A stretch of 64,000 bases of DNA from Verrucomicrobiia bacterium (GTDB lineage: Bacteria > Verrucomicrobiota > Verrucomicrobiia > Limisphaerales > Pedosphaeraceae), in assembly GCA_036268055.1 (NCBI GenBank), contig DATAUW010000013.1:186001-250000 (forward strand), in the 5' to 3' direction. The notes beneath the pieces are model-generated. The model was not told where the DNA came from, made no database searches, and saw nothing but the letters and a program-made list of their open reading frames with translations. A program made the position numbers and the translations under genes. Shown here in pieces: positions 2,829 to 64,000 of the stretch. Positions within the stretch are counted from its first letter, which is position 1; the number at the start of each line of letters is the position of its first letter.

Positions 2829-5800
2829 TTACCGCCCGCAACGGCCCGCCGCGCGCAATGTCCATGTGCCTGGCGATACCGCCGTTGGGTCAACGACCGC
2901 GGTGGAACTCATCGTGCCTTCCGCATTGAGCATCCAGTAACGCGTCTCGCCACCCTGCCCGCGCCAGATGGCATCGGCCGTGCCGTCGTGATTGATGTCC
3001 AGAAAACCCGCGCAACTCCAGTAACCGCTGCGAGTCGCATTTCCCGGCAAAACACGCCCGGCGGAACGCTGAGTCCCATTGGCGTTCAAAATCCAATAAA
3101 CCGCTTCGCCACCGTTGCCCGTCCAAAGAATATCCGCCGTGCCATCGTTGTTGATGTCACTGAAACCGATGACGCGCCAATAATTATTCGCCGTCGCATT
3201 TCCCGGCGCAACCCGTCCCGCGACTCGTTGCGTGCCGTCGGGATTTAGCAACCAGTAAACCACTTCACCGCCGGCGCCAGTCCACAAAATATCCGCCGTG
3301 CCATCACCATCAATGTCCGCAAAGCCCGCGACTTTCCAATAATTATTCGAGGTTGCGTTACCCGGCGCAACCCGCCCTGCGCTCTTGCGCGTGCCGTCGG
3401 GATTGAGCAACCAATAGACCACTTCACCACCGGCGCCAGTCCACAAAATATCCGCCGTGCCGTCACGATCAATGTCCGCAAATCCCACCGCTTTCCAATA
3501 GCCGCTTGATGTCGCATTGCCTGGATACACCCGCGCCGCCGTCTTGAGCGAACCGTCCGCGTTCAACATCCAATAAACTACTTCACCGCCCGCGCCGGTC
3601 CAGAGAATGTCGGAAACGCCATCGCGATCAATATCCGCAAAACCGCAAGGCGTCCAATAGCTCATGTCCAATGTGCCTGTGGAAACATAACCGCTCGACT
3701 TATGCGTTCCGTCCAACTTTAAATTCCACGTCTGCACCTGACCGGTGTTGCGCGTCCAAAGCAGACGCACCGTTCCGGGATCCGCCACGCTGCACGCATT
3801 CGCGCTGGTGCCAAGACTCGCGTATGCCGAACCATTGTTGCCCCAAATCGTATAATAATTCGTCACGTTGCCGGAAGTATCCACGCCGGTGTTTTCATAA
3901 ACCTGCTCTGTGCCGCTATAAACCAAAGTGCCGTCGCTCGAATTCGTGGGATAACGATCCGTGCGCGCGCGAATATAAACCGTGTTCGTCGGCATGCCGC
4001 AATTCGTCGGCGCGGTCCAGCGCAGCCATACACTGTTGGTCAATCCCACCGCGGCGAAGGAGAAACTATTATTCAATGTGATATCCGCGCCAATGACATC
4101 GCCGCTCGCGCTCGTGCTTGAAGTTCCGATCACAACTCCCGTCCGCGTCGCGCTGCCCATGCCGGCCATGACCGCCGTCACCGAATAAGTCTGCGCACTC
4201 GGCACCTTGACGGCGTAGTAACCTTTCGAGTCGCTGGTCGTGGAATAACTTTGTCCGCCACCGGTTGCCGTTACCGTCGCGCCGACCACCGGTGCACTCA
4301 CCGAAGTCGTTATCCGTCCCGTCAACAATTCACCCGTGCCCGTGGGATAAACATTATAAACAATCGTATCAATGATGTTGAAGCCGTAAGGCGTTTCCAA
4401 AAATGGCAGCGCGTACCACGCATTATAAGCGCCACTCCAGCCGAAGTTGATATGATGATAAAGCGTGCTGCTGTCATAGCCAAATCCGTCGCACACGACG
4501 CAATGCCCGTCGCTGCCGCTGGCGCTGATGCCGAACATTACCGGGCAACCGGCGGCGAGATTCGCATCCGTCGGGATGAGCAGATTTCCCGGGTTCAAAA
4601 CATATTTGGCATTCGAGTATTGGAAAACGGAAGTCAACGCCGGAGCGCACAACGTCATGTAAGTTCCCGAACCGCCGGAAGCATATTGCATGTTGACGCT
4701 CACACCCGCGTCATACGAAAGCGCGCCAATCATTTGCCATTGCGCCGCGTTATAACTGCTGAAAGCGGGATTCAACGTCATCAAACTCCAATTATAAGCG
4801 CCACCTGCGCCATCGCCGCCGCGAGTCGTGGCGGAACGGGAAACGCCGTTGACATAAATCGTGCGCGTCACCGAGCCCACGCGCGCCGTAGGAAATTGCC
4901 AGTAACGCATCAACTGAGACATCGCCGTCGCCACGCAGCCGTCCACGACATTATTCGGCGTATAATAATTGAAACAATTCTGCCCGGCTTCCGCGCCCTG
5001 ATCCCAGAGACTTTGCACAAATGGCGAGACGCGCACGTCGGAGACCGAACCTACGCTTCCCGTGAGCACAGGACCACTCGGATCGGGTGCAAAATCATTG
5101 GTCATCACGTCGGGCAGTTCGGCCAGCGGCGGCGGATTGCGCATTAGATTTACCGTCATCGCGTCGTAGATACCATCCGGCACAACGCGATACAGGCAGC
5201 TCGATTCGAGGACGGATTGTTTGGATGTCCACGTCGGCCAAACGATTCCCGAATCTACCGCTTGCCAGGTTTGGCCAAAATCATACGACGCATAAATCGT
5301 CACCGATCCGGAAGAATTATAAGTCAACTGCACATGACCATTTACAATGTTCATGCTTTGGACGGGAATGGCTGAGGCGATCGCATTTGTGGTAACGATG
5401 TCGTTGGTCGGATCTGGATCCGTCGGGGCATTCGCCAGGCTCAAGCCGCCAATCGTTTGCATCGCCGAAGAATTTCCTGACGCCGTCGTGCGCGACGAAT
5501 GTTTTTTATATTTTTCCCATTTCGCTTTCGCCTTTTGGGACACCACGATCACCGCGTCATCATTTGTCGAAACCGGCGTTGTAGAAGCCGTAAGAGAATT
5601 AGCGCCGGAGTTGTTGGCATGGCGGCTTTTTACTTTTTGCAGATGCTCACTGCGCGCAGGGACATCACGATTCAACATCAGCCACAGGGGATTTTCCGAA
5701 TCCGGTTTGAAATCGCCTTTGTCGGCAAACGCGATGACTGGCTCCAATTCATCATCCGCGGGCGTGACTATATACCCCTCGGGCGCGAGATGAATGACGA

Positions 5801-5996
5801 AGAAATTGGTGAAGTTTTCGACGGATTTGATCTGAACGTGAAGCCTGGCCGCGAGATGCGAATGGTCGTCCGCAAGCCACCCCCGCGCAACGGATTCGAC
5901 TGTAGATTTATCAACGGGAGCAGCCGCCATTTGCCGCGTAAGTAACACGACAAGGCCGGTCAATACCCATCCGGTCCATTTCCTTCTAAAGTTCAT
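2829..5996 (-). CDS. Secreted C10 (streptopain-like) cysteine protease with FG-GAP repeats
   Basis: A protein of 1055 residues from the ATG at 5996 (MNFRRKWTGWVLTG); the frame opens at a TTG six codons earlier. A Sec signal peptide is followed by a Spi/propeptide-like region (about 30-130; FFVIHLAPEGYIVTPADDE) that in this family inhibits the enzyme. The catalytic domain (about 320-570) has the peptidase C10 signature DGCVATAMSQLMRYW with nucleophile Cys354, and a catalytic His498 in DGHCVVCDGFG. A carboxypeptidase-regulatory/CnaB-like domain follows (about 575-640), then linkers, then six FG-GAP/VCBS-like units (DIDRDGVSDILW and variants) that probably form a calcium-binding beta-propeller. 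It likely acts outside the cell on proteins. The fusion to a propeller is what differs from SpeB. Confidence 0.88.
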   Translation of the reverse strand: MNFRRKWTGWVLTGLVVLLTRQMAAAPVDKSTVESVARGWLADDHSHLAARLHVQIKSVENFTNFFVIHLAPEGYIVTPADDELEPVIAFADKGDFKPDSENPLWLMLNRDVPARSEHLQKVKSRHANNSGANSLTASTTPVSTNDDAVIVVSQKAKAKWEKYKKHSSRTTASGNSSAMQTIGGLSLANAPTDPDPTNDIVTTNAIASAIPVQSMNIVNGHVQLTYNSSGSVTIYASYDFGQTWQAVDSGIVWPTWTSKQSVLESSCLYRVVPDGIYDAMTVNLMRNPPPLAELPDVMTNDFAPDPSGPVLTGSVGSVSDVRVSPFVQSLWDQGAEAGQNCFNYYTPNNVVDGCVATAMSQLMRYWQFPTARVGSVTRTIYVNGVSRSATTRGGDGAGGAYNWSLMTLNPAFSSYNAAQWQMIGALSYDAGVSVNMQYASGGSGTYMTLCAPALTSVFQYSNAKYVLNPGNLLIPTDANLAAGCPVMFGISASGSDGHCVVCDGFGYDSSTLYHHINFGWSGAYNAWYALPFLETPYGFNIIDTIVYNVYPTGTGELLTGRITTSVSAPVVGATVTATGGGQSYSTTSDSKGYYAVKVPSAQTYSVTAVMAGMGSATRTGVVIGTSSTSASGDVIGADITLNNSFSFAAVGLTNSVWLRWTAPTNCGMPTNTVYIRARTDRYPTNSSDGTLVYSGTEQVYENTGVDTSGNVTNYYTIWGNNGSAYASLGTSANACSVADPGTVRLLWTRNTGQVQTWNLKLDGTHKSSGYVSTGTLDMSYWTPCGFADIDRDGVSDILWTGAGGEVVYWMLNADGSLKTAARVYPGNATSSGYWKAVGFADIDRDGTADILWTGAGGEVVYWLLNPDGTRKSAGRVAPGNATSNNYWKVAGFADIDGDGTADILWTGAGGEVVYWLLNPDGTQRVAGRVAPGNATANNYWRVIGFSDINNDGTADILWTGNGGEAVYWILNANGTQRSAGRVLPGNATRSGYWSCAGFLDINHDGTADAIWRGQGGETRYWMLNAEGTMSSTAVVDPTAVSPGTWTLRAAGRCGR
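2905..3665 (-). repeat. In-frame tandem repeats coding FG-GAP units
   Basis: About six repeats with a period near 159 bp (53 residues) inside the C10 protease gene. Each encodes D-D/N-D-G-AD-ILW-G-GGE-YW. Neighbouring units are highly similar at DNA level, for example around 3273 and 3433, which suggests recent internal duplication and a risk of assembly or length variation. Confidence 0.75.
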
Positions 5997-6237
5997 TCCG
6001 ATCAAATTGGACAACTGACGCTGCTGCCTAAGCTACGCCTGTATTTTTAAGTCCTGATTACCTGAACAAGCCAAACGGCTTGCATGCCTATGGCGACTAA
6101 CGGCAGCTTCTGAGAGGAACTTAAGGAAAACTTTGAAGTTTTTTTGAGACTGTTCGGACGCAGTCTAAAACCTGCCGGATGGCAGGGCGGCGCAACGCGG
6201 TCTCGGCTTATAAAACAAGCGCAGTAGTATAGAAAAC

Positions 6238-7044
6238 TTATTTAACCGGAGACGCATTGGTTTCTGGTGTCGAAATATTTACGGGCGGAACGGCATCGGC
6301 AGCAGCCAGTTCATCGGGCAAAATCGTGATGGCAATGCGGCGGTTGCGCGCGCGGCCTTCCGCAGTTGAATTGTCCGCGATCGGACGAAATTCTCCATAA
6401 CCAACCGCACCGACCCGATGCGCGTCCACCCCGGCTTTCTCCGTGAGAAAATGCACGGCGGCCAGCGCGCGGGCAGTCGAAAGTTCCCAGTTGCTCGCGA
6501 AACGATTGCGTATCGGCACGTTGTCCGTGTGGCCGATGACTTGAATCTTCAGTTCAGGATGACCCGCGAGGATCGTCGCGATTTTACGAAGAACCGATTC
6601 GCCATCCGGTTTGAGAATCGCTTCGCCAGAATTAAACATCACCCGGTCGAGAATATTCACTGTCAACTTCCCTTGAAGTTTTGAAATAGTGACATCCTTC
6701 GATTCCAGGTCGGAACGCATCTCGTCTTCAAGCCCCTTGGCCATCTGGCCCGCCTTCTCTTTTTCCTTTTCGAGATCAGCAACCTGCCCCTGCAACGATT
6801 CGATCTGGCTTTTGTCCTGTTCGTTTTCCGCAAGCGTCGAAGCGAGCTTGGCTTTGACATCGTCAAGGCTCGCGGGCAACGCCGCCATCTCGCGCAAATG
6901 CCCGACTGCCGTCGCCCACAATAAAAGCGCGGCGATCAACAGCGCCCCAAGGATGCCCACAAGCGTCCACGGCAATTTGGCTGGGTTCGCGGCGCGTTTG
7001 CCTTTGGTCGCGTATTCAGTAAATGGTTGATGTTCGGTGCTCAT
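6238..7044 (-). CDS. OmpA/MotB-family peptidoglycan-binding membrane protein
   Basis: A 268-residue protein with a short cytoplasmic N-terminus, one transmembrane helix (about 25-46, WTLVGILGALLIAALLLWA), a long coiled coil (about 55-130, rich in K, E and Q) and a C-terminal OmpA-like domain (about 135-255). That domain holds VIGHTDNVPIR and NWELSTARA, the region that contacts peptidoglycan diaminopimelate. It resembles MotB-like cell-wall anchors rather than OmpA itself, because there is no beta-barrel. It is the last of three minus-strand genes (FecR-barrel, CHASE2 kinase, this gene) separated by 87 and 54 bp, so they may form one operon. A structural or sensing role linking inner membrane and wall is inferred. 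Confidence 0.88.
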   Translation of the reverse strand: MSTEHQPFTEYATKGKRAANPAKLPWTLVGILGALLIAALLLWATAVGHLREMAALPASLDDVKAKLASTLAENEQDKSQIESLQGQVADLEKEKEKAGQMAKGLEDEMRSDLESKDVTISKLQGKLTVNILDRVMFNSGEAILKPDGESVLRKIATILAGHPELKIQVIGHTDNVPIRNRFASNWELSTARALAAVHFLTEKAGVDAHRVGAVGYGEFRPIADNSTAEGRARNRRIAITILPDELAAADAVPPVNISTPETNASPVK

Positions 7045-7098
7045 CTGCCTGGTGCGATTTAATCACAGAGCCGGTGAGCGTCAACGGGAAGAATTATT

Positions 7099-9150
7099 TC
7101 AGGAAATGCCGAGCGCCTTTGCCGTCTCGTGCAAGGCCGACAACATTTCCTCCGTCGTCTGGTAACGCAGCGCACAATCCGGCTGGCACGCCTTCAAAAT
7201 GATCGCATTGACCCGGATGAAGTCCGCATGTCCGCTGCGTTCAATCAGCGTCGTGGCGAGATCGGGAAAATATTGCGGATCGCTGCCGGTGCTGATGACG
7301 TAAAGCAACATTCCCAGCGCGTAAATATCCGCTTGCACCGTGCCCGTCCGCTCCGGCGGCGGCGGCATATAACCAAGCGTGCCGACGATGGTTTGCACCT
7401 GATCCAGCGGTCGCACCGCCGCGACCAAACCAACATCCGCAAGTTTCGGCCGGCCTTTCACGAAGATGACATTAGGCGGTTTGATGTCGCGATGAGTCAA
7501 ACCGGCGCGATGCAAAAAATCCAGCGCTTCGGCCAGCACAATGGTGATGCGCACACATTCGTGAATCGGCAGGCGGCGATTCTCCGCCTGCTTGCGCACG
7601 AACTCCAGGTCTTTCGGCTTGTAAAGCGATGGTTGCGTTTCCCAGTTCGGATCACGCGAATCTCCAAGCTCCATCACGTAATAAAAATACCCGTCAGGTT
7701 TTTTCTTGCTGACCAGTTCCACGCGCAGCAGCGCGGGATGTTGTTCCGAAACTGGTTTATATTTTTGGATGCCTCGGAATTCGGCGTCGAACGGCCGCGG
7801 ATCATTGCCGAATTTGGATTGATAAATGACCTTCAACGCCTGCCATTGGCCGATGGCGTTGCGCGCGAGCCAGACCTTGCCAAAGCCACCTTCGCCAAAC
7901 GGCGGGTCAACCAGTTCATAATCCGGCGCGTCCGGCAATTCAGGATCAATCGGTTTGACGACGATTGTCTTGTCGCGCGGCGGACGCTCTTTCACTGGCG
8001 CAAACACTTGAGTACGCTCTTCCAGCGGCAGCGCAATCGCGAGAACGCAGGCGACAGGAATTTGCGCCCCAACGACGATCAACCACGGAAACCAATAATT
8101 CGTAACGCAACTTAATGAAATTGCCGCGATACCAAATAAAATCATACAGCCCACCGCAACTCCAACGGCGGCAAACTTTCGGAAGAAGCTAAGAATAATG
8201 CCGAACACACAACCTGTGACGATGAAAAGCAGCGCCTCAAAAATCCAATCAGAGCGCACGAGGGCTTCGTTGTTTACGAGATTCAAATATTCAGCGACTT
8301 GTATTTCCGCGCCGCCCACCGCTTCATCAAACGGGGTTTTGAATTTATCTTCCTCGGTGTATGAGGCCAGTGAGTTGAGCGGCTGGTTGCCAATAAACAC
8401 GATTTTGTTTTTAAAAAACCCGGGGGCTTTATGCAGCGCAAGACGATAGCTGATCGCGTACGACCGATCATCAGAACCATAATAACGCAGCCAGCGCTCG
8501 ACCGGTTGGCGCGGCAAATGAGCGTGTGAAACGACCGCCGCTTTCCATGCGAGGCTCGTATATTCTCCCGAACTTGGAAACGGCCAGTGTCGGCGCACCG
8601 TATTGTCGAAATCAGGCGACAGCCAGCCGATGCCCCAGTTGGTCCGGGCAGCATTGAGAAAAATATCTGCGGGCAATTCGGTCTTGTGGATTTCCGATCC
8701 TGGTAGTGCGGCAGGATTTTGCTTGGCGAGCAGCACGACATTGGTAAGCCGCCGGAGCGCGGCCGCCAGCGCGATGTCCGCCGGAGAATTTTCGGCGTAT
8801 CGAAAAAAAATGTCCATCACCACCAGCGGACAGCCGTCGTCGGCAAGTTGATTGAGCAATTTCGCATGCAATTCCCTGGCCCAGGGCTGGCCGCGCGCTT
8901 GGCTCAATTCGGGATCGTTATAGGAATCGTTATCTATGACAATCAGTACGACGGGCTCCTTGTTCGTTCGAATAGCGAATTTGGACAGGTAATCAAAACT
9001 GGCGCTGGCCAGCGGGCCGCCATCGTATGCGCCGTTGTCCCGATAACCGCCATGATTTTGCGACCAAAGAATCAGACCTGCCGCAACGGAAAACGTCGCG
9101 ACCAAAAGCGGTCGAAATATTTTATGTTGAGTGAGGGTTTTAAAAGTCAC
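7099..9150 (-). CDS. CHASE2-domain Ser/Thr protein kinase
   Basis: A 683-residue membrane kinase with a GTG start. After an N-terminal membrane helix comes a periplasmic CHASE2 sensor domain (about 40-290; VVLIVIDNDSY, then LVVMDIFFRYAE), then about three transmembrane helices (about 295-385), then a cytoplasmic Hanks-type kinase domain (about 412-680). The glycine loop is GEGGFGKVW near residue 419, the ATP lysine lies in ALKVIY, and the catalytic loop is HRDIKPPN with Asp555. The metal-binding motif reads DVG instead of DFG, and the APE motif is PPE. Both changes are tolerated in some bacterial kinases, so activity is likely but not certain. It follows the FecR-barrel gene by 87 bp; FecR-like and CHASE2 proteins are often encoded together. 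Confidence 0.9.
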   Translation of the reverse strand: MTFKTLTQHKIFRPLLVATFSVAAGLILWSQNHGGYRDNGAYDGGPLASASFDYLSKFAIRTNKEPVVLIVIDNDSYNDPELSQARGQPWARELHAKLLNQLADDGCPLVVMDIFFRYAENSPADIALAAALRRLTNVVLLAKQNPAALPGSEIHKTELPADIFLNAARTNWGIGWLSPDFDNTVRRHWPFPSSGEYTSLAWKAAVVSHAHLPRQPVERWLRYYGSDDRSYAISYRLALHKAPGFFKNKIVFIGNQPLNSLASYTEEDKFKTPFDEAVGGAEIQVAEYLNLVNNEALVRSDWIFEALLFIVTGCVFGIILSFFRKFAAVGVAVGCMILFGIAAISLSCVTNYWFPWLIVVGAQIPVACVLAIALPLEERTQVFAPVKERPPRDKTIVVKPIDPELPDAPDYELVDPPFGEGGFGKVWLARNAIGQWQALKVIYQSKFGNDPRPFDAEFRGIQKYKPVSEQHPALLRVELVSKKKPDGYFYYVMELGDSRDPNWETQPSLYKPKDLEFVRKQAENRRLPIHECVRITIVLAEALDFLHRAGLTHRDIKPPNVIFVKGRPKLADVGLVAAVRPLDQVQTIVGTLGYMPPPPERTGTVQADIYALGMLLYVISTGSDPQYFPDLATTLIERSGHADFIRVNAIILKACQPDCALRYQTTEEMLSALHETAKALGIS

Positions 9151-9237
9151 ACGGAATTTCCAAGTCGGACACGGCAGCCAAAGACTACAATTTCAGGAAA
9201 ATCGCGGCGAGCTTTTTCGCTGAGCCTCAATCAGCAG

Positions 9238-12200
9238 TTAGAAGACAAAATTGAGCCGCGCCATAAAAGTCCGTTTACGGGGAAGCTCCTGATACGTATT
9301 GAGCGGGCTAAGTTGGTAACCGCCCCCGCTCAGGTCGAGCAAGCCGAACCGGGCCTCGATGCGCCGATCGAGAAAGCGCCAGCCCGCGTAAATATTCTCC
9401 TGCACAAAACTATCGCCCGGCCCCGCGCCGATGAACGCGGAGTTCGCCGAATTTTGCTGGCGATACCAGGTGGCATCCACTCGCGCGAAAAATCCGGATG
9501 GATGATTAAATAAAATGTAGCCAGTGGTTTCGTGCAGCGTCGCGCCGTATTCCTGGCTCGCGGTTGCGAGCGCAGCGATGGGAATTTCCGGAAGTGTGTC
9601 GCCGAGCCGCACGCGATCCAATTTGTAACCCCCTCCAACAACAAATTGGTCGCCCAACAACTGATTGATGTTTGCCGAAAAAGCCAACTCGCGGTAGTCG
9701 AGATATTCGGCGGTCGAATCCGAAACGTAGGGCGCAAAACCTTGTTCCAAGGAATAAGCACCCACATCGCGGCGAACTTTGCTGTTAAGTTCCTCCAGTT
9801 CAAAACCGGCATAAGTACGGCTGGAAAATTTTAAATCCAAAGCGCCGCCATACACTTCAAATTCGGGCGCGGCAATCGAGCCATACAACGATTCGGGAAT
9901 AAGCGAGCGAAAGGTTTGCGGAAAACCCGCGAGTTGCGTCGGCTCAAGCCGATAACTTTCGTCCAGGCTGACTCCGCCCAGCGAACGCGCATAAATTCCC
10001 CGGACGGCAACTTCGGAAATCGGCTCCCAGACAATCCCCGCTTTTGGACCGAGTTGCGAGCGATGATCTTCGCCCCCAGTGAAAGGCGGATTGCGAAAAT
10101 TCAACGGATACGAAATATCATCGTAAGTTGCGCCACCGGTCAGCCAAAGATGATCCACCGGCTCCACGGTCAGATAACCATAACCAGTCGTTCGGCGAAA
10201 ATGGGAATCATCGCTCGTCGTATCGTCCGTGGTTGGAAACAGAAACGGCACCAGCCCGGGTGAAACACCAAAGGTATTTTGACTATCAAATGTCCCCGCT
10301 TGAAAGCGCGCGCCGAGTGAAAGATTGACGCGTTCGAATTCAAATATTTGATTCAACTCGCCAGTATAGATCTCAAATTGATTGTGATAATCAACATTGA
10401 ATGGTTCGACATCGGTGCTTGTGACATTGCCCGTCCCATCTTGCGCCAGCAGCAGTTGATTCGCGCCGCGATCACTGAATTGCTGTTGATCAACGAGCCG
10501 CCCGCCAAGTAATAGCGTGTGAATTCCCGGAGCCCATTCGCGATGCCACGCGCCGACTACGATGGGTTGTTGTTGTTCGTTGAAATTAAAAAAAGGCCGC
10601 GCGCTGGATTGATTGTAATACTGAAAATTATCGCCCGAATGATAATCCTGGTATTGCACGAGCAACAATGCGGTGTCGGCGTCGGTCACTTGTTGTTTGA
10701 TCGTGGTGTTGAACTCAATGTCGTTCAGCGCATTATTTATGCGAAAGCCGCTGTTGTGATGGTAATCCAAATCCAGCGAGTAAGCGGTCTTGCCTTCCGT
10801 GCCGTAAAGCGAGGCAAGCTGGTGATACATCCCGTCTGTGCGATACTCCGTCGTGTCGGCAAAGTGGATGCCGTCGGCTTCAAAGAGCCGAGAATATTCC
10901 TGTTGTGAAACGCCTTGAGACAAACGCCCGCCGCCGAGCGGAGCGAGAATATTCGCCAGCAACAGTTCGTTGAACCAAACTGTTTCGTAGCGCAAGTTGA
11001 ATTGAGTGGGATCGCGCAGATCATTATAAGCATCGGACAGAAACAAATGCGCAGAGTCGTTCGCGTAATCGCTGGTGACGGCTTTGGAGGCTTCGCGAAC
11101 ACTCACGTCCGTCATCCCCAGATCGCGATACATCGTGGCGAGGTTCGCACTGCCGACGGCGCGATCCTGGTCAAGCAACATGTGGGAACGAAAAACACTG
11201 CGGTCATCGTTGCGTTCTTGGGATTGCTGAAGATCACCGACAGCTTCGTTGATTTTATTTTCCTGCTGTTTGAGCAGCGCGAGGTAAAGCCAGCCGGTGG
11301 GATCACTGGGATCAAGCTTCAGGGATAATTGCAATTCCCGCGCTGCCCGCGCATCGTCGCCGCTGTCGGCATAAGCCTTGCCGAGATAACTGCGCAACAG
11401 CGCGCGTTGCGGTTCGAGCGCGGCGGCGGTGAGCAAGTCCGTGCGTCCGCGCGACAAATCACCTTGTTTGATCCGGCACAGACCGCGCCCGAGCCACGCA
11501 TTTCCGAGCGCGGCATCAACGGCCAGCGCGCGATCAAACCAGCTCGCGGCCTCGCGAGTGTTATTTCGCGCCGCTTCGACAAATCCTTTCAACGCCAGCC
11601 CTTGAGCATTGCGCGGCGCAAGCGCAAGACTTTGGTTCAATGCCGCAAGCGATTGCGCCGTGCGGCCAAAACCAAATTCGAGTTCGGCGACGCGCTCCCA
11701 CGCGTAGCCGAATTGCGGAGAACGCGCCGCCGCTTGTTTCGCGAGTTTCAATGCGCTCGTCAGGGACGATTCCCCGTTCGCGCGGGACTGTTCGTAGTAC
11801 GACTCCGCGAGCAGTTCCGTCGCGAGTTCAGGGGCGGGACGATTTGATAATGATTGTCGTTTCACCGCGGCGATCAAAGTTCGCAATGCCTCGGCGAGGT
11901 GCGAACTTTTTGCGGCCGAGTCGGGCTTTTGAATGGATGCCAGCACCGCCTCGGTTTCGCTCACCTGTCCGACGGCCAGCAGAACTGCCGCGTGATAAAT
12001 CTTTGCCGCGTCGGAAGCGGGCGATTGCGCAGCCGGATAATTCGCCAGCGCCGCCAATAAATCTCCCGCTCGATAAGCCGAAAGAGATTCATGCAAGACT
12101 CGTTCGTCTTCCGCGGCAAATTCCAAGTCATTCAAGTCCAACACCGCCGGATAATAAAAACACCACTGCAATATATTATTGGCGATGAATCCCGCCGTGC

Positions 12201-12825
12201 GCGCCGGAGCGTGGCCGGTGTCCGCGATTCCCTGTTGCAGGTTCGTCAGCGTCAATTCGCCGTCCGCGTTGCTCAGCTTGACTTTGCCATCCACTACGGA
12301 AACGACGGTGTGTTCAGCGCCATTGGTTTCCGAAACTTCCATGACGAATTCGGTGCCTTCGATTCCCGCCACCGCGCCGTGCGTGATGACTTTGATGCGT
12401 CCCGGTTTGTCGCGATGAAAAAACGAAACGATCCCGCGAACCACATGCAGCCCGGCCAAGTTTCCCGACGCGTCCGCCGGCAATATTTCTATCTCCGTGA
12501 GCGCGCCAAAAGGCACGATGCTTTCGTCCGACCAGCGTAGCGTCACACGGCTGTTGCTGCCGCTGCGCAACCGGTCGGACGGATGCAAAACCTGGTTAGT
12601 TTGCGTCAAAGTCCACGTCGAAGCGCCCACCGGCAGGACTTCTACTTGCCCCTGCAATTCGATGATGCGAATTTCTTGCGCGCCGGTTTCGGTATCGGCT
12701 GCGCGCGCGGAAATTGCTGCTGCTCCTGAGAAGCAAGTCGCAAGCGCGAGACACGGCCAAACGCTGCCAGCGAATTTCCGCGCGGTAGTCATATTGCGAT
12801 GGTCGGCTTTGAGATCAGGTTGCAT
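9238..12825 (-). CDS. FecR domain-TPR-outer membrane beta-barrel protein
   Basis: About 1195 residues. Possible starts are ATG at 12825 or 12792; the latter gives the neater signal peptide (MTTARKFAGSVWPCLALAT). The first TTG of the frame at 12855 is less likely. After the signal peptide comes a FecR-like domain (about 50-200; RLRSGSNSRVTLRWSDESI, then GIEGTEFVMEV), then tetratricopeptide repeats (about 220-560; GNAWLGRGLCRIKQGD, SYLGKAYADSGDDARAAREL). The last roughly 600 residues are aromatic-rich beta-strands resembling TonB-dependent receptors, ending in phenylalanine (ARLNFVF) as outer-membrane barrels do. There is no plug domain that I can see. Usual FecR is an inner-membrane anti-sigma regulator; here the domain is exported. 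It diverges from the ECF sigma gene region. Confidence 0.82.
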   Translation of the reverse strand: MQPDLKADHRNMTTARKFAGSVWPCLALATCFSGAAAISARAADTETGAQEIRIIELQGQVEVLPVGASTWTLTQTNQVLHPSDRLRSGSNSRVTLRWSDESIVPFGALTEIEILPADASGNLAGLHVVRGIVSFFHRDKPGRIKVITHGAVAGIEGTEFVMEVSETNGAEHTVVSVVDGKVKLSNADGELTLTNLQQGIADTGHAPARTAGFIANNILQWCFYYPAVLDLNDLEFAAEDERVLHESLSAYRAGDLLAALANYPAAQSPASDAAKIYHAAVLLAVGQVSETEAVLASIQKPDSAAKSSHLAEALRTLIAAVKRQSLSNRPAPELATELLAESYYEQSRANGESSLTSALKLAKQAAARSPQFGYAWERVAELEFGFGRTAQSLAALNQSLALAPRNAQGLALKGFVEAARNNTREAASWFDRALAVDAALGNAWLGRGLCRIKQGDLSRGRTDLLTAAALEPQRALLRSYLGKAYADSGDDARAARELQLSLKLDPSDPTGWLYLALLKQQENKINEAVGDLQQSQERNDDRSVFRSHMLLDQDRAVGSANLATMYRDLGMTDVSVREASKAVTSDYANDSAHLFLSDAYNDLRDPTQFNLRYETVWFNELLLANILAPLGGGRLSQGVSQQEYSRLFEADGIHFADTTEYRTDGMYHQLASLYGTEGKTAYSLDLDYHHNSGFRINNALNDIEFNTTIKQQVTDADTALLLVQYQDYHSGDNFQYYNQSSARPFFNFNEQQQPIVVGAWHREWAPGIHTLLLGGRLVDQQQFSDRGANQLLLAQDGTGNVTSTDVEPFNVDYHNQFEIYTGELNQIFEFERVNLSLGARFQAGTFDSQNTFGVSPGLVPFLFPTTDDTTSDDSHFRRTTGYGYLTVEPVDHLWLTGGATYDDISYPLNFRNPPFTGGEDHRSQLGPKAGIVWEPISEVAVRGIYARSLGGVSLDESYRLEPTQLAGFPQTFRSLIPESLYGSIAAPEFEVYGGALDLKFSSRTYAGFELEELNSKVRRDVGAYSLEQGFAPYVSDSTAEYLDYRELAFSANINQLLGDQFVVGGGYKLDRVRLGDTLPEIPIAALATASQEYGATLHETTGYILFNHPSGFFARVDATWYRQQNSANSAFIGAGPGDSFVQENIYAGWRFLDRRIEARFGLLDLSGGGYQLSPLNTYQELPRKRTFMARLNFVF

Positions 12826-13008
12826 GGTGGTAATTAGGTTGTTTCCTGCCGTCAAGCGGATTTCCGCTTCGGGTTCATTCCCGTTTATTTTCAGGGCTTA
12901 TATCCACTACGTGGAGCGGATCGATTTCTTGCGAAATAAAAACAAAAGTTTTTTGCAAGAACCGGCGAAACGGCGCGTACCGGGATTAAACCTCAACCAA
13001 ACACAACC

Positions 13009-13533
13009 ATGACCACCATAGAACCAAAGACTAGTTTCCAACCCAGTTCCCTGCCCTTCGCCTCGCCTTCGCGCATGGAAATTGTCCAACCGGATTCGCT
13101 CGTGCAAGCCGTGGACGCCGCCGTATCGGAAATCGAAGATGAGGCGCTCACGCCAAACGGCGCAGACTCTCCCAGCGTCGCTTTTCAACCACGCCTGATG
13201 ACGGGTTTGCTGACTTACTGTTATGCCCGGCAGATCTACAGTTCGTCGCAAATCGTTTTCCTTCTGCGCCGCGACCGCTTGTTTCGCCTGATGTGCGATG
13301 ACATTCTTCCCGATGCGGAATGGATAAGCCGTTTTCGCCGCGACAACCGTCGCGCTATTTTGCAATGCCTGGTCGTCGTCCTGCTGTTCCAGGCAAAACA
13401 AAAAGTCGTGGCCGGCCTGGTCACGCACGTCAACAATGTGAAAATCGCCGCCGAAGCGAAACGCCGCATCATCATGTCCGCCTTCACGGACAGCATGGAA
13501 CTTGATGAATGTGGCTTTGGCGCCGAAGCTTGA
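13009..13533 (+). CDS. DUF772-like protein (N-terminal domain of IS5/IS1182-type transposase, stand-alone)
   Basis: A 174-residue protein. Residues about 55-125 match the pattern of the transposase InsH/DUF772 N-terminal domain: FQPRLMTGLLTYCYARQIYS, then LRRDRLFRLMC, then PDAEWISRFRRDNRRAI. The DDE catalytic part is absent. The frame continues into a divergent C-terminus (KRRIIMSAFTDSMELDECGF) and stops cleanly, with no inverted repeats or transposase remnants around it. It sits 45 bp before an ECF sigma factor gene in the same orientation, and its ATG follows a normal leader, so it looks like a maintained gene rather than debris. It may be a recruited DNA-binding partner of the sigma factor; this is inference. 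Confidence 0.7.
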   Translation: MTTIEPKTSFQPSSLPFASPSRMEIVQPDSLVQAVDAAVSEIEDEALTPNGADSPSVAFQPRLMTGLLTYCYARQIYSSSQIVFLLRRDRLFRLMCDDILPDAEWISRFRRDNRRAILQCLVVVLLFQAKQKVVAGLVTHVNNVKIAAEAKRRIIMSAFTDSMELDECGFGAEA

Positions 13534-13578
13534 TTGCTCCCAACAAACCCTTAACCTTAATCCGATTCCACGAATAAA

Positions 13579-14214
13579 ATGTCGCTTATGAAGCCGAAAG
13601 AAGAAGAATTGATTCCCACCCGCGCCAGCCTGATTCATCGCTTGAAGAATTGGCAGGACAACCTGAGCTGGCGCGAGTTTTTCAATGTATATTGGAAATT
13701 GATCTACGGCGTCGCGCGCAAGGCGGGCTTGTCCGATGATGAAGCACAGGACGTGGTCCAGGAAACTTTGATCTCCGTGGCGAAGCACATGCCGACGTTT
13801 AATTACGATCCATCCATCGGCTCATTCAAGGGCTGGCTGCTGACGATGACCCGCTGGCGCATCATCGGACAATTCCGCAAACGCCGTCCGGGCGCGGATA
13901 ATCCCCTGCCCGCCGATGAAACGAAACGCACGGACGCCGTGGAAGCCATCGCCGATCCAAACATTCCCGATTTAAAAGACGTTTGGGAAAAGGAATGGGA
14001 GCGCAATCTGCTTGAGGTTGCGCTCGATAATCTCAAGCGCACTCTGGACCCGCAGCGTTACCAGATTTTTGATTTTTACGTGAACAAAGAATGGCCGCCG
14101 GAGAAGGTTGCCAAACATTTTGGCGTCTCAACCGATCAGGTTTACCAAATAAAACATCGCATGACGGACACCATCCGCAACGAAGTGCAACGGTTGGAAA
14201 AAGAAATGCTCTAG
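13579..14214 (+). CDS. ECF RNA polymerase sigma factor
   Basis: A 211-residue sigma-70 family protein. Region 2 spans about 35-100 with the core-binding motif DDEAQDVVQETLISVAKHM and the promoter -10 part GSFKGWLLTMTRWRIIGQFRKR. Region 4 spans about 150-205 (KEWPPEKVAKHFGVSTDQVY) and should recognise the -35 element. There is no region 1.1 or 3, as expected for ECF sigma factors. ATG 13579 is used; an in-frame ATG at 13588 is equally possible. It lies between a DUF772-like gene and a small zinc-ribbon gene, all in the same direction, and opposite a FecR-domain outer-membrane protein. No classical anti-sigma factor gene is visible nearby. Confidence 0.92.
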   Translation: MSLMKPKEEELIPTRASLIHRLKNWQDNLSWREFFNVYWKLIYGVARKAGLSDDEAQDVVQETLISVAKHMPTFNYDPSIGSFKGWLLTMTRWRIIGQFRKRRPGADNPLPADETKRTDAVEAIADPNIPDLKDVWEKEWERNLLEVALDNLKRTLDPQRYQIFDFYVNKEWPPEKVAKHFGVSTDQVYQIKHRMTDTIRNEVQRLEKEML

Positions 14215-14262
14215 TAATGAAAGTAGCTTGTTATTCGACTCAATTTTTAATAAACAAATCCT

Positions 14263-14478
14263 ATGGCTGATTTCAAATTCGAATGCCCTTTGTGCAAGCA
14301 ACATCTGGCTTGCGATCCACAATTCGCCGGCCGCCAGATTCAATGCCCCGGTTGCGACAAACTGATTCGCATTCCTTCCGCCCCCGGCCAGACCGCGGTT
14401 TATCAACCGGAATCAGGAAACACCTGGGCCACGCATTTGCCGCCGGCTGCGGACAAACCGCCAAAACCCGGCAGTTAA
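14263..14478 (+). CDS. Small zinc-ribbon protein
   Basis: A 71-residue protein with two CxxC knuckles (CPLCKQHLACD and QCPGCDKLI) that should bind one zinc ion, followed by a Pro/Ala/Gly-rich flexible tail. Such zinc-ribbon domains are frequent in Planctomycetes and Verrucomicrobia, both alone and at the N-terminus of larger proteins. It is 48 bp after the ECF sigma gene and is followed by a good terminator, so it is probably the last gene of that transcript. A role in modulating the sigma factor is possible but unproven. Confidence 0.78.
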   Translation: MADFKFECPLCKQHLACDPQFAGRQIQCPGCDKLIRIPSAPGQTAVYQPESGNTWATHLPPAADKPPKPGS

Positions 14479-59941: not shown

Positions 59942-60121
59942 CTATCGCGTAACCAGCTTTGATGTTTGATCCTTTTCTCTTCCACCCACCACCGTCTCCC
60001 CCATAAACGCATGCTCAATCCCCTCGCCATCCACCGCCAAATCCGATGCCGTTTTGATAAAATCCAACCCGCAAAACGTGAACCCCGCCCCCATTTCAAT
60101 CTCACAAAATTTCGTATCCAT
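59942..60121 (-). CDS. Small hypothetical protein, possibly truncated
   Basis: About 59 residues from ATG 60121: MDTKFCEIEMGAGFTFCGLD, then IKTASDLAVDGEGIEHAFMG. The pattern (a GxxFTFxGxxFxKT strand pair, then AFMGETVV) looks like a small beta-barrel-type protein I have seen as short hypothetical genes in related genomes, but I cannot name a family. The last residues (GGREKDQTSKLVTR) look unrelated to the rest and run into the restriction-modification island, so the gene may have lost its natural end when the island arrived. An overlapping frame at 59878-60129 seems a shadow. Confidence 0.45.
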   Translation of the reverse strand: MDTKFCEIEMGAGFTFCGLDFIKTASDLAVDGEGIEHAFMGETVVGGREKDQTSKLVTR

Positions 60122-60204
60122 GCCCGCAATTTTACCCATCCCCTCCCTCAACTGCTGTCCAACCCAATTTAAAGCCCACGACTACCACCAAATCATCATC
60201 CTTT

Positions 60205-60405
60205 CTTGCTGAAAACTGAAAACTTGAAACTTGAAACTTCCCCCAATTCCGCACTCCGCACTCCGCATTCCGCATTGAACTCATTTCCCCTCTGCGCCTC
60301 TGCGCCTCTGCGTCAAACCCGGCTGCAATTAACCGTAATCTCACGCCCCACACCAACGCCCGTGTCCAAACTCTTGGTAAAAACTTGAAACTTGAAACTC
60401 TTCCT
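60205..60405. repeat. Short degenerate tandem repeats upstream of thiG
   Basis: Several micro-repeats cluster in a gene-free stretch (60122-60418): a 7-bp unit ACTTGAA at 60211-60239 and again at 60380-60399; GCACTCC/GCATTCC at 60251-60276; and an 8-bp unit CCTCTGCG three times at 60289-60312. No coding frame or riboswitch-like fold is evident. Confidence 0.6.
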
Positions 60406-60418
60406 TTAACTTCCCTTC

Positions 60419-61207
60419 ATGGTCTTGGTCAATCAGCCCCTCGTCATTGCCGGTCGCGAATTCGCCTCCCGTCTCATCCTTGGGACCGGAAAATTCTCCG
60501 CGCCCGAAGCCATGCGCGACGCCCTCGCCGCCAGCGGCACCGGCATCGTCACCGTCGCCCTGCGCCGCGCCGACCTTTCCGGCAAGCGCGATCCTTTTGC
60601 CAACATCCTCGAATACATTGACCCGCAAAAATACCTGCTCCTGCCCAACACCAGCGGTGCCATGAACGCCGAAGAAGCCGTCCGCCTCGCGCGCCTTGCC
60701 GTCGCCGCCGGACTGCCCAAATGGGTGAAACTCGAGATCCATCCCGACCCGCGCTATCTTCTGCCCGACCCCATCGAGACCCTCAAAGCCGCCGAAATCC
60801 TCGTCAAGGAAGGCTTCACCGTCTTGCCATATATCAATGCCGACCCCGTCCTCGCCAAACGCCTTCAGGATGTGGGAACCGCCACCGTCATGCCCCTCGG
60901 CTCGCCCATTGGTTCCAATCGCGGCATCCAGACCCGCGACCAGATTCGCATCATCATCGAGCAAGCCACCGTTCCCGTCATCGTGGATGCCGGCATCGGC
61001 GCGCCCAGCCACGCCGCCGAAGCCTTGGAACTCGGAGCCGACGCCGTCCTCGTCAACACCGCCATCGCCATCGCCGGCGATCCCAACCGCATGGCCATCG
61101 CCTTCAAACAAGCCGTCGAAGCCGGCCGCTCCGCCTACGAAATCGGCCTCGCCGCCCAGCACGAAACCGCCAGCGCCACCAGTCCGCTAACTGCATTTTT
61201 AAGTTAA
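60419..61207 (+). CDS. thiG: Thiazole synthase
   Basis: 262 residues, complete. Motifs: [20 protein letters not shown] at the start, the Schiff-base lysine in [25 protein letters not shown], the phosphate site [14 protein letters not shown] and [20 protein letters not shown]. It forms the thiazole ring of thiamine from deoxyxylulose 5-phosphate, dehydroglycine and ThiS thiocarboxylate. The usual neighbours thiS and thiF are absent, and I see no TPP riboswitch in the preceding 300 bp. The gene starts a run of plus-strand genes ending with panB. Confidence 0.94.
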
Positions 61208-61217
61208 CCAAACGCTG

Positions 61218-61649
61218 ATGATCAATTCGATTCGGTCGTTATTGCAAGATCCGTTGTTTCAAAGACCTGCCGATTGCGAAACTGCTCTGCAGATCGTCCG
61301 GTGGTGGGAACTCCGGCGCATTCCCTACAATTTAATCGTTGGATTGGTCGGCATCTTCAACTGCGCCTGCATCTTTGGAATGCTTATTCTATTTCCCGCC
61401 GCGCAAACCAACGGGTTCGCCCGCGGCTTTCCCGGGCTTCCCCTCGTCGGAATTTTTATTTACGGCGTGATGGCTAATATCTGTTACAGTGGCGGATGGG
61501 TTGCAGAGATAGCCGCGGTCAAAATATGGGAACGGCGCGGACACGATTTTGGCCAAATTTCTTTTGCCCTCGGTATACTATTTTCAATTCTGCTGACTAT
61601 GTTGCCGGCCACCCTGTGCTTGATTTTTTTTATAATAAAATCAATCTGA
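61218..61649 (+). CDS. Integral membrane protein of unknown function
   Basis: 143 residues with three or four transmembrane helices (YNLIVGLVGIFNCACIFGML, GLPLVGIFIYGVMANICY, FALGILFSILLTMLPATLCL). The motif ALQIVRWWELRRIPYNLIVG before the first helix is shared by a group of uncharacterised bacterial membrane proteins. It lies 10 bp after thiG and 10 bp before the heptose-kinase gene, so it is probably co-transcribed, but it has no evident link to thiamine or lipopolysaccharide. Confidence 0.7.
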   Translation: MINSIRSLLQDPLFQRPADCETALQIVRWWELRRIPYNLIVGLVGIFNCACIFGMLILFPAAQTNGFARGFPGLPLVGIFIYGVMANICYSGGWVAEIAAVKIWERRGHDFGQISFALGILFSILLTMLPATLCLIFFIIKSI

Positions 61650-61659
61650 CCTGACGAAA

Positions 61660-62676
61660 ATGAAACCCGCCACCCTCACCCCCGCGCGCGTCCGCAGCAT
61701 CCTTGCTGCCGCCGCCAAAACCCGCGCCCTCGTCATCGGCGATGTCATGCTCGACCATTTCATTTGGGGCCAGGTCGGCCGTATCTCGCCGGAAGCGCCC
61801 GTGCCCGTCGTGGATTTTGATCGCGAAAATTACATTCCCGGCGGCGCCGCCAACGTCGCGCGCAACCTCACCGCCCTGCACGTGCCCACCGATCTGTTCG
61901 GTGCCGTCGGCCGCGATTCCGCCGCCCGCCAGCTCACCCAACTTCTGAAAGAACAACACATCGGCTGTGACGGCCTGATCGCCGATGCCTCACGCTTCAC
62001 CAGTCTCAAGACCCGCATCGTCGCGCATCAGCAACAAGTCGTCCGCCTCGACCGCGAAACCAAAGTGACCCTCGACGATAAAGCCACCGACCGCCTCTTA
62101 AATTCTCTCGCCGCCAAACTCGATGGCGCTGCCGCCGTCATCGTCGGCGATTACGGCAAAGGCGTCGTCTCCCAGGTCCTGCTCGACGAACTCAAGCAAC
62201 TCTGCCACGACCGCGGCGTTTGGCTCAGCCTCGATCCCAAGCCCGTCCATCATCTCACTTTGAGCGGCCTCTCCCTAATCACACCCAACCGCCGCGAAGC
62301 CTTTGAACTCGCCGATATCCCCGACGAAACGCGCCACGCCAATCCCCTCGCCGACCATAATTTGATGCAAGTCGTCGAAAAATTATTGCGCGAACTCAAA
62401 CCCGTTCTCCTCCTCATCACCCTCGGCGAACTCGGCATGCTCCTCTGCCGCTCCGGCCAAAAACCCTTTCACATCCCCACGCGCGCCAAGGAAGTTTTCG
62501 ATGTCTCCGGCGCGGGCGATACCGTCATCGCGTCCTTCACCCTCGCCATCGCGGCCGGAGCCTCGCCCGTCGAAGCCGCCATCCTTTCCAACCACGCCGC
62601 CGGAATTGTCGTCGGCAAAGTCGGCACCGCCATCGTCACCCCCGCCGAGTTGATCGAGAGCTTTCAAAATTCATGA
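61660..62676 (+). CDS. D-glycero-beta-D-manno-heptose-7-phosphate kinase (RfaE domain I)
   Basis: 338 residues, a PfkB/ribokinase-family sugar kinase. Motifs: VIGDVMLDHFIWGQVGRISP near the start, a GGAANVARNL substrate segment and the catalytic GAGDTVIASFTLAIAAG. It corresponds to the kinase half of HldE/RfaE, which phosphorylates heptose 7-phosphate at C1 on the way to ADP-heptose for lipopolysaccharide. The nucleotidyltransferase half is not fused, so a separate gene is needed elsewhere. The stop overlaps the panB start by 4 bp (ATGA). Confidence 0.9.
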   Translation: MKPATLTPARVRSILAAAAKTRALVIGDVMLDHFIWGQVGRISPEAPVPVVDFDRENYIPGGAANVARNLTALHVPTDLFGAVGRDSAARQLTQLLKEQHIGCDGLIADASRFTSLKTRIVAHQQQVVRLDRETKVTLDDKATDRLLNSLAAKLDGAAAVIVGDYGKGVVSQVLLDELKQLCHDRGVWLSLDPKPVHHLTLSGLSLITPNRREAFELADIPDETRHANPLADHNLMQVVEKLLRELKPVLLLITLGELGMLLCRSGQKPFHIPTRAKEVFDVSGAGDTVIASFTLAIAAGASPVEAAILSNHAAGIVVGKVGTAIVTPAELIESFQNS

Positions 62677-63443
62677 CGTCCATGCCCTCCGTAAAAATCA
62701 CCGCCCCCGCCATCCTTGCGATGAAAGGGCGCCAGGAAAAAATCCCCGCGCTCACCGCCTACGATTTTCCCATGACCCGCCTGCTTGATGAAGTCGGCGT
62801 GCCGCTCATCCTCGTCGGCGATTCCGTCGGCATGGTCGTGCTCGGCTACAGCGATACCACTCTCGTCACCATGGCCGAGATGGAACACCACGTCCGCGCC
62901 GCCGCGCGCGCCAAACCCAGCGCCCTCCTCGTCGCCGACCTGCCCTATCACACTTATCAAAATGTGAACGACGCCTTGGAAAACGCCCGCCGCCTCGTCG
63001 CCGCTGGTGCCGAAGCCGTCAAAGCCGAAGGCGGCCGCTCCATCATCCCGCAAGTCCGCGCGATCATCGAAGCCGGCATTCCCTTTCTCGGCCACCTCGG
63101 CATGCTCCCCCAAAGCGTCCGTGAAGAAGGCGGCTACCACGTCAAAGGCCGGGACGAAACCGAACACCAGGCCCTCCTCGCCGATGCCCAGGCCCTCGCC
63201 GAAGCCGGCGCCTTCGCCGTCGTTCTCGAACTCGTCACCCCGCCCGTCGCCGCCGAACTCACCAAAAAAATTTCCATCCCCACCATCGGCATCGGCTCCG
63301 GCCCCGATTGCGACGGCCAAATCCTCGTCACCCCCGACCTGCTCGGCACCTTTCCCTGGTTCACCCCCAAATTCGTGAAACCCAAACTCAACGCCGCCGA
63401 GCAAATGCGCAAAGTCATCGTCGAATGGCGCAAATCCATCTAA
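62673..63443 (+). CDS. panB: Ketopantoate hydroxymethyltransferase
   Basis: 256 residues, complete. Motifs: IPALTAYDFPMTRLLDEVGV, the metal and substrate region LVGDSVGMVVLGYSDTTLVT, AVKAEGGRSIIPQVRAII, and HLGMLPQSVREEGGYHVKG. It adds the one-carbon unit from methylene-tetrahydrofolate to ketoisovalerate, the first step of pantothenate synthesis. ATG 62673 overlaps the stop of the heptose-kinase gene; an in-frame ATG at 62682 is an alternative. No panC follows. Confidence 0.95.
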   Translation: MTSMPSVKITAPAILAMKGRQEKIPALTAYDFPMTRLLDEVGVPLILVGDSVGMVVLGYSDTTLVTMAEMEHHVRAAARAKPSALLVADLPYHTYQNVNDALENARRLVAAGAEAVKAEGGRSIIPQVRAIIEAGIPFLGHLGMLPQSVREEGGYHVKGRDETEHQALLADAQALAEAGAFAVVLELVTPPVAAELTKKISIPTIGIGSGPDCDGQILVTPDLLGTFPWFTPKFVKPKLNAAEQMRKVIVEWRKSI

Positions 63444-63520
63444 AAAATATTTTCCTGCTCCCAACGGATCGCGCGTCTGCGACCCGCAGCCATGTCCATA
63501 AAGTCAAACTGCCGCCAAAT

Positions 63521-63700
63521 GCAATCGCCAGCCAAACGCACTCCGTCCCTCTCGCCCCGCGACCGCGCGGGGAGAGAGCCGGAGAGAGGGGCGTCCTATC
63601 TCAAATAACCACAAAGTCTAAATCGCACCCTCCAAGTCCCGCAACAACGACCAACAATCTAAACATGGTAGGGCGGAGCTGCCGCTCCGCCGTCCGCAGT
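63521..63700 (+). repeat. Intergenic direct repeat, copy 1
   Basis: Starts GCAATCGCCA and contains GGGGAGAGAGCCGGAGAGAG, then GCGTCCTATCTCAAA, AATCGCACCCTCCAAGTCCC and a GGGCGGA palindrome region. The second copy begins exactly 300 bp later. Similarity is high through most of the 180 bp. Confidence 0.8.
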
Positions 63701-63820
63701 CCCGCAGGGACGACAGAAATTTGCCCAGCAATTTATTGCTGGGTTGGATTCTCCTTCAATCCAAGTCCCGCCAGGGACAAAAGAAATCAGCGATTTAACA
63801 AAACGTCATCCTCGTCACCT

Positions 63821-64000
63821 GCAATCGCCACCCCAACGCACTCTGTCCCTCTCTCTCCACGACAACGTGGGGAGAGAGCCGGAGAGAGGGGCGTCCTATC
63901 TCAAACAACCACGCAGTTTAAATCGCACCCTCCAAGTCCCCCAACAACGACTAACCATCTAGGCATGGCGGGGCGGATCTGCTGCTCCGTCCGAAGTCCC
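63821..64000 (+). repeat. Intergenic direct repeat, copy 2 (reaches the window edge)
   Basis: Same element as 63521-63700 with scattered substitutions. It carries CCACGACAACGTGG where copy 1 has CCCCGCGACCGCGCGGGG, so both keep a hairpin at that point although the sequence differs: a compensated stem. Confidence 0.78.

Follow-up and report, generated by a model that had tools for sequence, protein, structure and literature searches.

Do the two divergent gene sets at positions 6238 to 14478 of the window (the whole 64,000-nucleotide stretch of Verrucomicrobiia bacterium DNA analyzed here, from contig C13 of the 5.1-Mb genome G000) form one signaling unit reaching from the outer membrane to transcription, as the first-pass annotation proposed? 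All six open reading frames (ORFs) are present as it had them. Three closely spaced minus-strand genes with recognizable Pfam domains code in order for a likely outer-membrane barrel with an exported FecR domain, a CHASE2 kinase, and an OmpA-like protein (gaps of 87 bp and then 54 bp), and diverge across a 153-bp intergenic region from plus-strand genes coding for a DUF772 protein, an extracytoplasmic function (ECF) sigma factor, and a zinc ribbon protein (gaps of 45 bp and then 48 bp). The locus is a real, recurring signaling unit that combines known parts, namely an ECF linked to a Ser/Thr kinase (STK), a CHASE2-STK, and a FecR/CHASE2 pair. The two halves belong together, but the OmpA-like protein is not a member. 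We favor, with a probability of about 0.6, an envelope-to-transcription relay in which the barrel and CHASE2 sensor would act through the STK on the ECF, which would be activated by phosphorylation and would drive its own operon and a small regulon. The features of the locus are as follows.

6238..7044, minus strand: OmpA-like protein with one N-terminal transmembrane (TM) helix (TM 29-47) and a peptidoglycan-binding domain (PF00691, 7e-23)
7099..9150, minus strand: CHASE2 sensor STK (PF05226, 2e-26; PF00069, 4e-23; catalytic residues; PknB-like PDB matches)
9238..12855, minus strand: exported protein with FecR, tetratricopeptide repeats (TPRs), and most likely a plugless TonB-receptor-like outer-membrane barrel (PF04773, 9e-10; TPRs; C-terminal Phe; 5nec; Foldseek)
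12908..12932, minus strand: candidate ECF promoter towards the barrel operon, GCAAGAAATCGATCCGCTCCACGTA, weak by a strict position weight matrix (PWM)
12954..12979, plus strand: candidate ECF promoter towards the DUF772-ECF-zinc ribbon operon, TGCAAGAACCGGCGAAACGGCGCGTA, weak by the strict PWM
13009..13533, plus strand: stand-alone DUF772 protein (PF05598, 1e-9; NF033551 profile positions 13-152 of 488)
13579..14214, plus strand: ECF sigma factor of an STK-linked family (PF04542, 9.6e-12; TIGR02937)
14263..14478, plus strand: 71-amino-acid (aa) zinc ribbon protein (CPLC...CPGC in the sequence)

Conservation and linkage in Limisphaerales

The locus was compared across 116 genomes of the order Limisphaerales, with neighborhoods selected by the barrel or the CHASE2-STK (except L034, found via the ECF) and their domains marked with profiles built from the window proteins; one contig search used the ECF as query and gave three loci only. 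FecR-barrel homologs are present in 62 genomes and CHASE2-STK-related proteins in 75, a count that includes kinases without CHASE2. The FecR-barrel and CHASE2 form a common module with interchangeable outputs, which are a cyclase, a hybrid histidine kinase, or an STK; among 23 non-STK CHASE2 partners, 18 are cyclases and five are hybrid histidine kinases. The presence of an ECF depends on the output, with one lying within 8 kb of barrel-linked CHASE2 in 12 of 18 cases with an STK output (window and L034 included) versus 0 of 24 others (Fisher 1.7e-6), counts that are not independent by descent and in which several ECF-less STK cases are truncated by contig ends.

The window layout, with the barrel and CHASE2-STK in one direction and the ECF in the other, is repeated in five loci (L034, L038, L039, L054, and L142, where the contig ends within the kinase gene), and in a CHASE2 tree the window protein is inside a clade of 11 STK proteins (SH-aLRT 99). 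The gene content, the conserved linkage, and the output-dependent presence of the ECF are established by this comparison of neighborhoods, which finds the two halves co-occurring rather than on unrelated loci. That they are two ordinary, unrelated clusters diverging by chance is the least likely account of the locus; OmpA is just such a chance neighbor, but the layout in five other loci and the shared promoter-like motifs described below contradict it.

The ECFs accompanying the STK version are of two sequence types in several arrangements, and outside the window-type CHASE2 clade the ECF is often of the other type and encoded alongside the kinase. The window-family ECF also pairs with non-CHASE2 STKs (for example in G000:C34, G003:C82, and G013:C26). 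The first of these (G000:C34:19700-27440; L162, L302-L305) is a second locus of the window ECF family in the same genome, and has an STK with no CHASE2 detected, several motif copies, a divergent helix-turn-helix gene, and, following the kinase, a gene for a small protein.

A further feature of the related loci is a small exported protein, encoded divergently from the CHASE2-STK in L034, L036-L039, L054, and L142 (L036:724-1455, L037:11702-12403, L038:8527-9309, L142:1055-1588, and others); its C-terminal domain has two cysteines, and an Ig-like part is sometimes present. The gene is absent from the window.

A predicted promoter motif for the ECF family

When spaced pairs of 4-mers were counted, unsupervised, in the upstream regions of 17 ECF genes, GAAAGA-N16-CGTA exceeded the shuffles by a small margin, with three of its four clear carriers belonging to one family, and the GAAAGA/CGTA sequence was independently seen upstream of the exported two-cysteine protein genes in L036, L037, and L142. 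The motif and its distribution are established: TGAAAGATT-N12-14-CGTAT has 65 sites in 22 of the 116 genomes and none in a reversed control, and is present in 12 of the 19 genomes with a close ECF homolog (E<=1e-65) versus 10 of the 97 others (p 2.4e-6). Twenty-two of the 65 sites are no more than 9 kb from an ECF of this kind or 6 kb from ECF-system kinases. The spacing differs by lineage: for the majority of sites in CHASE2-STK genomes it is 13, and in the majority of genomes from the window's family it is 14. Downstream of the motif lie, among others, genes for the ECF itself, for response and AraC-type regulators, for the exported two-cysteine protein, and for a family of small proteins.

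From these patterns, TTGAAAGATT-N13/14-CGTAT is the predicted form of the promoter recognized by the ECF, and at the level of the ECF family the motif is strong. A classical GGAAC-type ECF promoter was also looked for in the intergenic regions and rejected, as the regex matches are scattered with no shared position. This small-protein family (ILQN..S.LY...W...A..F...) lies directly 3' of the ECF motif at L162:13410, L256, L257, L273, and L244.

GCAAGAA-N14-CGTA occurs twice, back to back, in the 153-bp intergenic region of the window, and with precisely this form and spacing nowhere else in the 5.1-Mb genome; the form was picked after inspection of the window sites. The minus-strand site on the barrel side has a counterpart at the same position in L086 and, as GCAAGAAATCCCACCTGGCCGCGTA, on the barrel side in G097:C129, and L054 has an exact TTGAAAGATT-N13-CGTA copy on its barrel side, positioned as in the window. 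The plus-strand site has counterparts at similar positions upstream of DUF772 in L086, L163/L054, and L164. A relaxed pattern has eight sites in the window's own genome, five of them at its two ECF loci, and the first matrix, of seven sites, ranked the window minus copy first. The two window copies are probably ECF promoter sites, and we treat them as candidates.

Barrel protein and kinase

The first-pass annotation of an outer-membrane barrel is supported. The protein is organized with a signal peptide, a FecR domain, TPRs, and a C-terminal 570 residues that are the likely barrel; translation may in fact begin with the ATG at 12792, directly before the signal peptide. Pfam has no name for the barrel region, but the final residue is Phe in 92 of 98 homologous ORFs and a profile from 30 barrel homologs matches the TonB-dependent receptor 5nec (E 2.8e-4). 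An AlphaFold2 (AF2) model of the barrel alone has 21 strands (22 is the TonB-dependent receptor count) at a mean pLDDT of 45, and nearly all of its best Foldseek matches are TonB-dependent receptors (best E 1.7e-6 with a TM-score of about 0.43; TM-scores of 0.4-0.5 overall); an AF2 model of the whole FecR-TPR-barrel protein had a mean pLDDT of 36 and was not used. The most likely structure for the C-terminal region is a plugless barrel of the TonB-receptor kind, with limited confidence in the exact fold. A paralog with 59% identity to the window barrel is encoded at G000:C11:216705-220115 (L105), with no CHASE2 gene detectable within 8 kb.

A FecR domain and a TonB-receptor-like barrel adjoining an ECF are reminiscent of FecA-FecR-FecI, and the FecR domain could in principle control the ECF directly, with the kinase secondary. 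We regard this route as very improbable, and FecA/FecR/FecI was rejected as the mechanism on topology: a signal peptide precedes FecR, no cytoplasmic anti-sigma part is present ahead of it, and no plug domain was found in the barrel protein. Moreover, FecR-barrels linked to cyclases or histidine kinases occur without an ECF.

In the kinase, a TM segment at 11-29 is followed by a periplasmic CHASE2 domain, then by a second group of TM segments at roughly 297-374, and last by a cytoplasmic Hanks kinase. Its catalytic features are kept (P-loop, K440, HRD with D555, and D572), and its structure-database matches are PknB-like PDB entries.

Sigma factor, associated genes, and OmpA

The ECF has PF04542 and HTH_23 matches within 211 aa and scores above the cut-off for TIGR02937; it consists of sigma2 and sigma4 with no extra domain, and no anti-sigma factor is recognized among its annotated neighbors in the window. 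In ECF43 sigma factors, the DAED of region 2.2 is replaced by uncharged residues with a phospho-Thr, as in the STTA of EcfP. The window ECF differs from EcfP in keeping an acidic EAQD, which, or a near variant of which, is kept in the family alignment, and membership of ECF43 was rejected for this reason. Conservation of Ser and Thr in the ECF singles out no one phosphosite candidate: in the trimmed alignment, near-invariance is shared by T6, S9, T55, S74, and T83.

The DUF772, ECF, and zinc ribbon genes are all present as annotated, but the DUF772 protein covers no more than the N-terminal third of an IS1182 transposase (positions 13-152 in a profile of 488) and has no catalytic part; a full-length IS1182 transposase with a DDE domain was rejected on this basis. 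A stand-alone DUF772 gene lies ahead of the ECF not only in the window but also in two G097 loci, and a weak DUF772 match is also ahead of the ECF-STK pair in G013:C26. The upstream stretch scanned for each of the four closest stand-alone DUF772 genes contains a motif copy, starting 116-129 nt from the end of that stretch. An exact copy upstream of the unlinked stand-alone gene G105:C292 (L164:1330-1908) suggests a regulon role for this transposase-derived protein. More divergent stand-alone DUF772 proteins were considered as regulon members and set aside, with no convincing upstream motif. NCBIfam assigns no family to the 71-aa zinc ribbon protein, a homolog of which adjoins a kinase gene in 13 of the 19 closest loci outside the window; it is probably an accessory, and we infer an accessory role in the sigma operon for DUF772.

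The OmpA ortholog occurs singly in 39 of the 116 genomes and in none of the seven other genomes carrying a window-type CHASE2-STK. It adjoins the kinase in the window only, is never near the module elsewhere, and was therefore rejected as a member of the unit. With only 54 bp between the two genes, OmpA may be on the kinase transcript, but as a bystander. Downstream of it, at 2829-6014 on the minus strand, are coded a C10-family cysteine peptidase with a Spi-inhibitor-like region, CarboxypepD_reg, and FG-GAP repeats. At the far end of the window, 60001-64000 differs from the remainder, with GC skew down to -0.26 and a GC content of 0.59.

A proposed relay and the evidence against it

In the relay that we favor, the sensor would comprise the outer-membrane FecR-TPR-barrel and the CHASE2 domain of the kinase, as the fold, the export signal, and the constant gene pairing suggest. 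A signal would lead the cytoplasmic STK to phosphorylate and activate the divergent ECF, a step modeled on conserved linkage and on known STK-ECF pairs. The ECF would then amplify the DUF772-ECF-zinc ribbon operon through the TTGAAAGATT-N13/14-CGTAT promoter, and in the window's lineage probably drives the barrel-kinase operon too. It would also drive a small regulon, which in relatives is predicted to include response regulators, AraC-type regulators, small proteins, and the secreted two-cysteine protein.

Several observations weigh against this relay, in addition to the common descent behind the Fisher counts and the choice of the GCAAGAA form after inspection. A tree-based pair test of STK against ECF had too few pairs, and the motif is missing upstream of the barrel or the ECF in most loci sharing the layout. 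Under a strict matrix built on other genomes, the window plus copy comes only 19th and the minus copy 26th in the 64 kb, so that both were rejected as strong sites, and 103 of 2,000 intergenic shuffles (5%) reach the best score of the window sites. Linkage of the halves also has to be qualified, as the kinase gene lies apart from the barrel and the ECF in G031, G081, G066, and G097:C212/C129. Lastly, the EcfP/ECF43 mechanism may not apply as such because the ECF keeps its EAQD.

The unlinked kinase genes and the retained acidic residues of region 2.2 are also what would be expected if the STK had other substrates, such as envelope proteins, and the ECF were a co-regulated neighbor set by its level, by DUF772, or by the zinc ribbon; autoregulatory promoters could suffice for its control. 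This alternative is unlikely, as an ECF goes with the kinase output, whereas otherwise similar modules with a cyclase or histidine kinase output lack one, and the same ECF family accompanies STKs without CHASE2.

Within the relay, a more specific version can be put forward tentatively: a plugless FecR-barrel might feed a CHASE2 STK that activates the ECF through a mechanism distinct from the ECF43 one, as the intact acidic motif would imply, with the transposase N-terminus as a conserved accessory and the sensor pair exchanged among three outputs.

Relationship to known systems

Phospho-activated ECFs are described in EcfP/PknT of Vibrio parahaemolyticus and EcfK/PknS of Xanthomonas citri, which form group ECF43 (PMC8999054, PMC13147305), and groups ECF59, 61, 62, 217, and 283 are predicted to be STK-linked (PMC8999054, PMC8103513, PMC13147305). 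As in all of these, the window ECF is near a Hanks-type transmembrane kinase and lacks a recognized anti-sigma gene, but the window kinase is set apart by its CHASE2 sensor and FecR-TPR-barrel partner. The window ECF retains the acidic motif, as is reported for other STK-linked groups whose control is described as open (PMC8999054).

The first-pass annotation was correct that FecR and CHASE2 gene pairs are known elsewhere. The BiofilmReg operon of Burkholderia (PMC5192318) codes for a LysM-FecR protein, a CHASE2 membrane sensor, a histidine kinase, and a response regulator; it shares with the window an exported FecR protein encoded beside a CHASE2 membrane sensor, whereas the window has a TPR-barrel, an STK, and an ECF. 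Cyanobacterial CHASE2-STK proteins, reported in a 2007 domain survey in which sigma factors are not mentioned (PMC2176072), have the same fusion of CHASE2 to a Ser/Thr kinase. FecA-FecR-FecI likewise brings together a TonB-receptor-like barrel, a FecR domain, and an ECF, but in the window FecR is fused to the barrel, the anti-sigma domain and plug are lacking, and a kinase is added. The suggestion that the full set is novel thus holds in part: descriptions exist for STK-linked ECFs, for CHASE2-STK fusions, and for FecR/CHASE2 operons, but a limited search of open-access literature found none of the FecR-barrel, CHASE2-STK, and ECF combination.

Phosphorylation is proven for few kinase-sigma pairs, all of them ECF43 among the cases found in the literature, and the unit described here extends the few known cases of kinases switching on sigma factors. 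Because this family offers a defined kinase, sigma factor, predicted promoter, and predicted targets, the control of acidic-motif ECFs becomes testable, in a bacterial order where one outer-membrane/CHASE2 sensor pair is joined to three output types.

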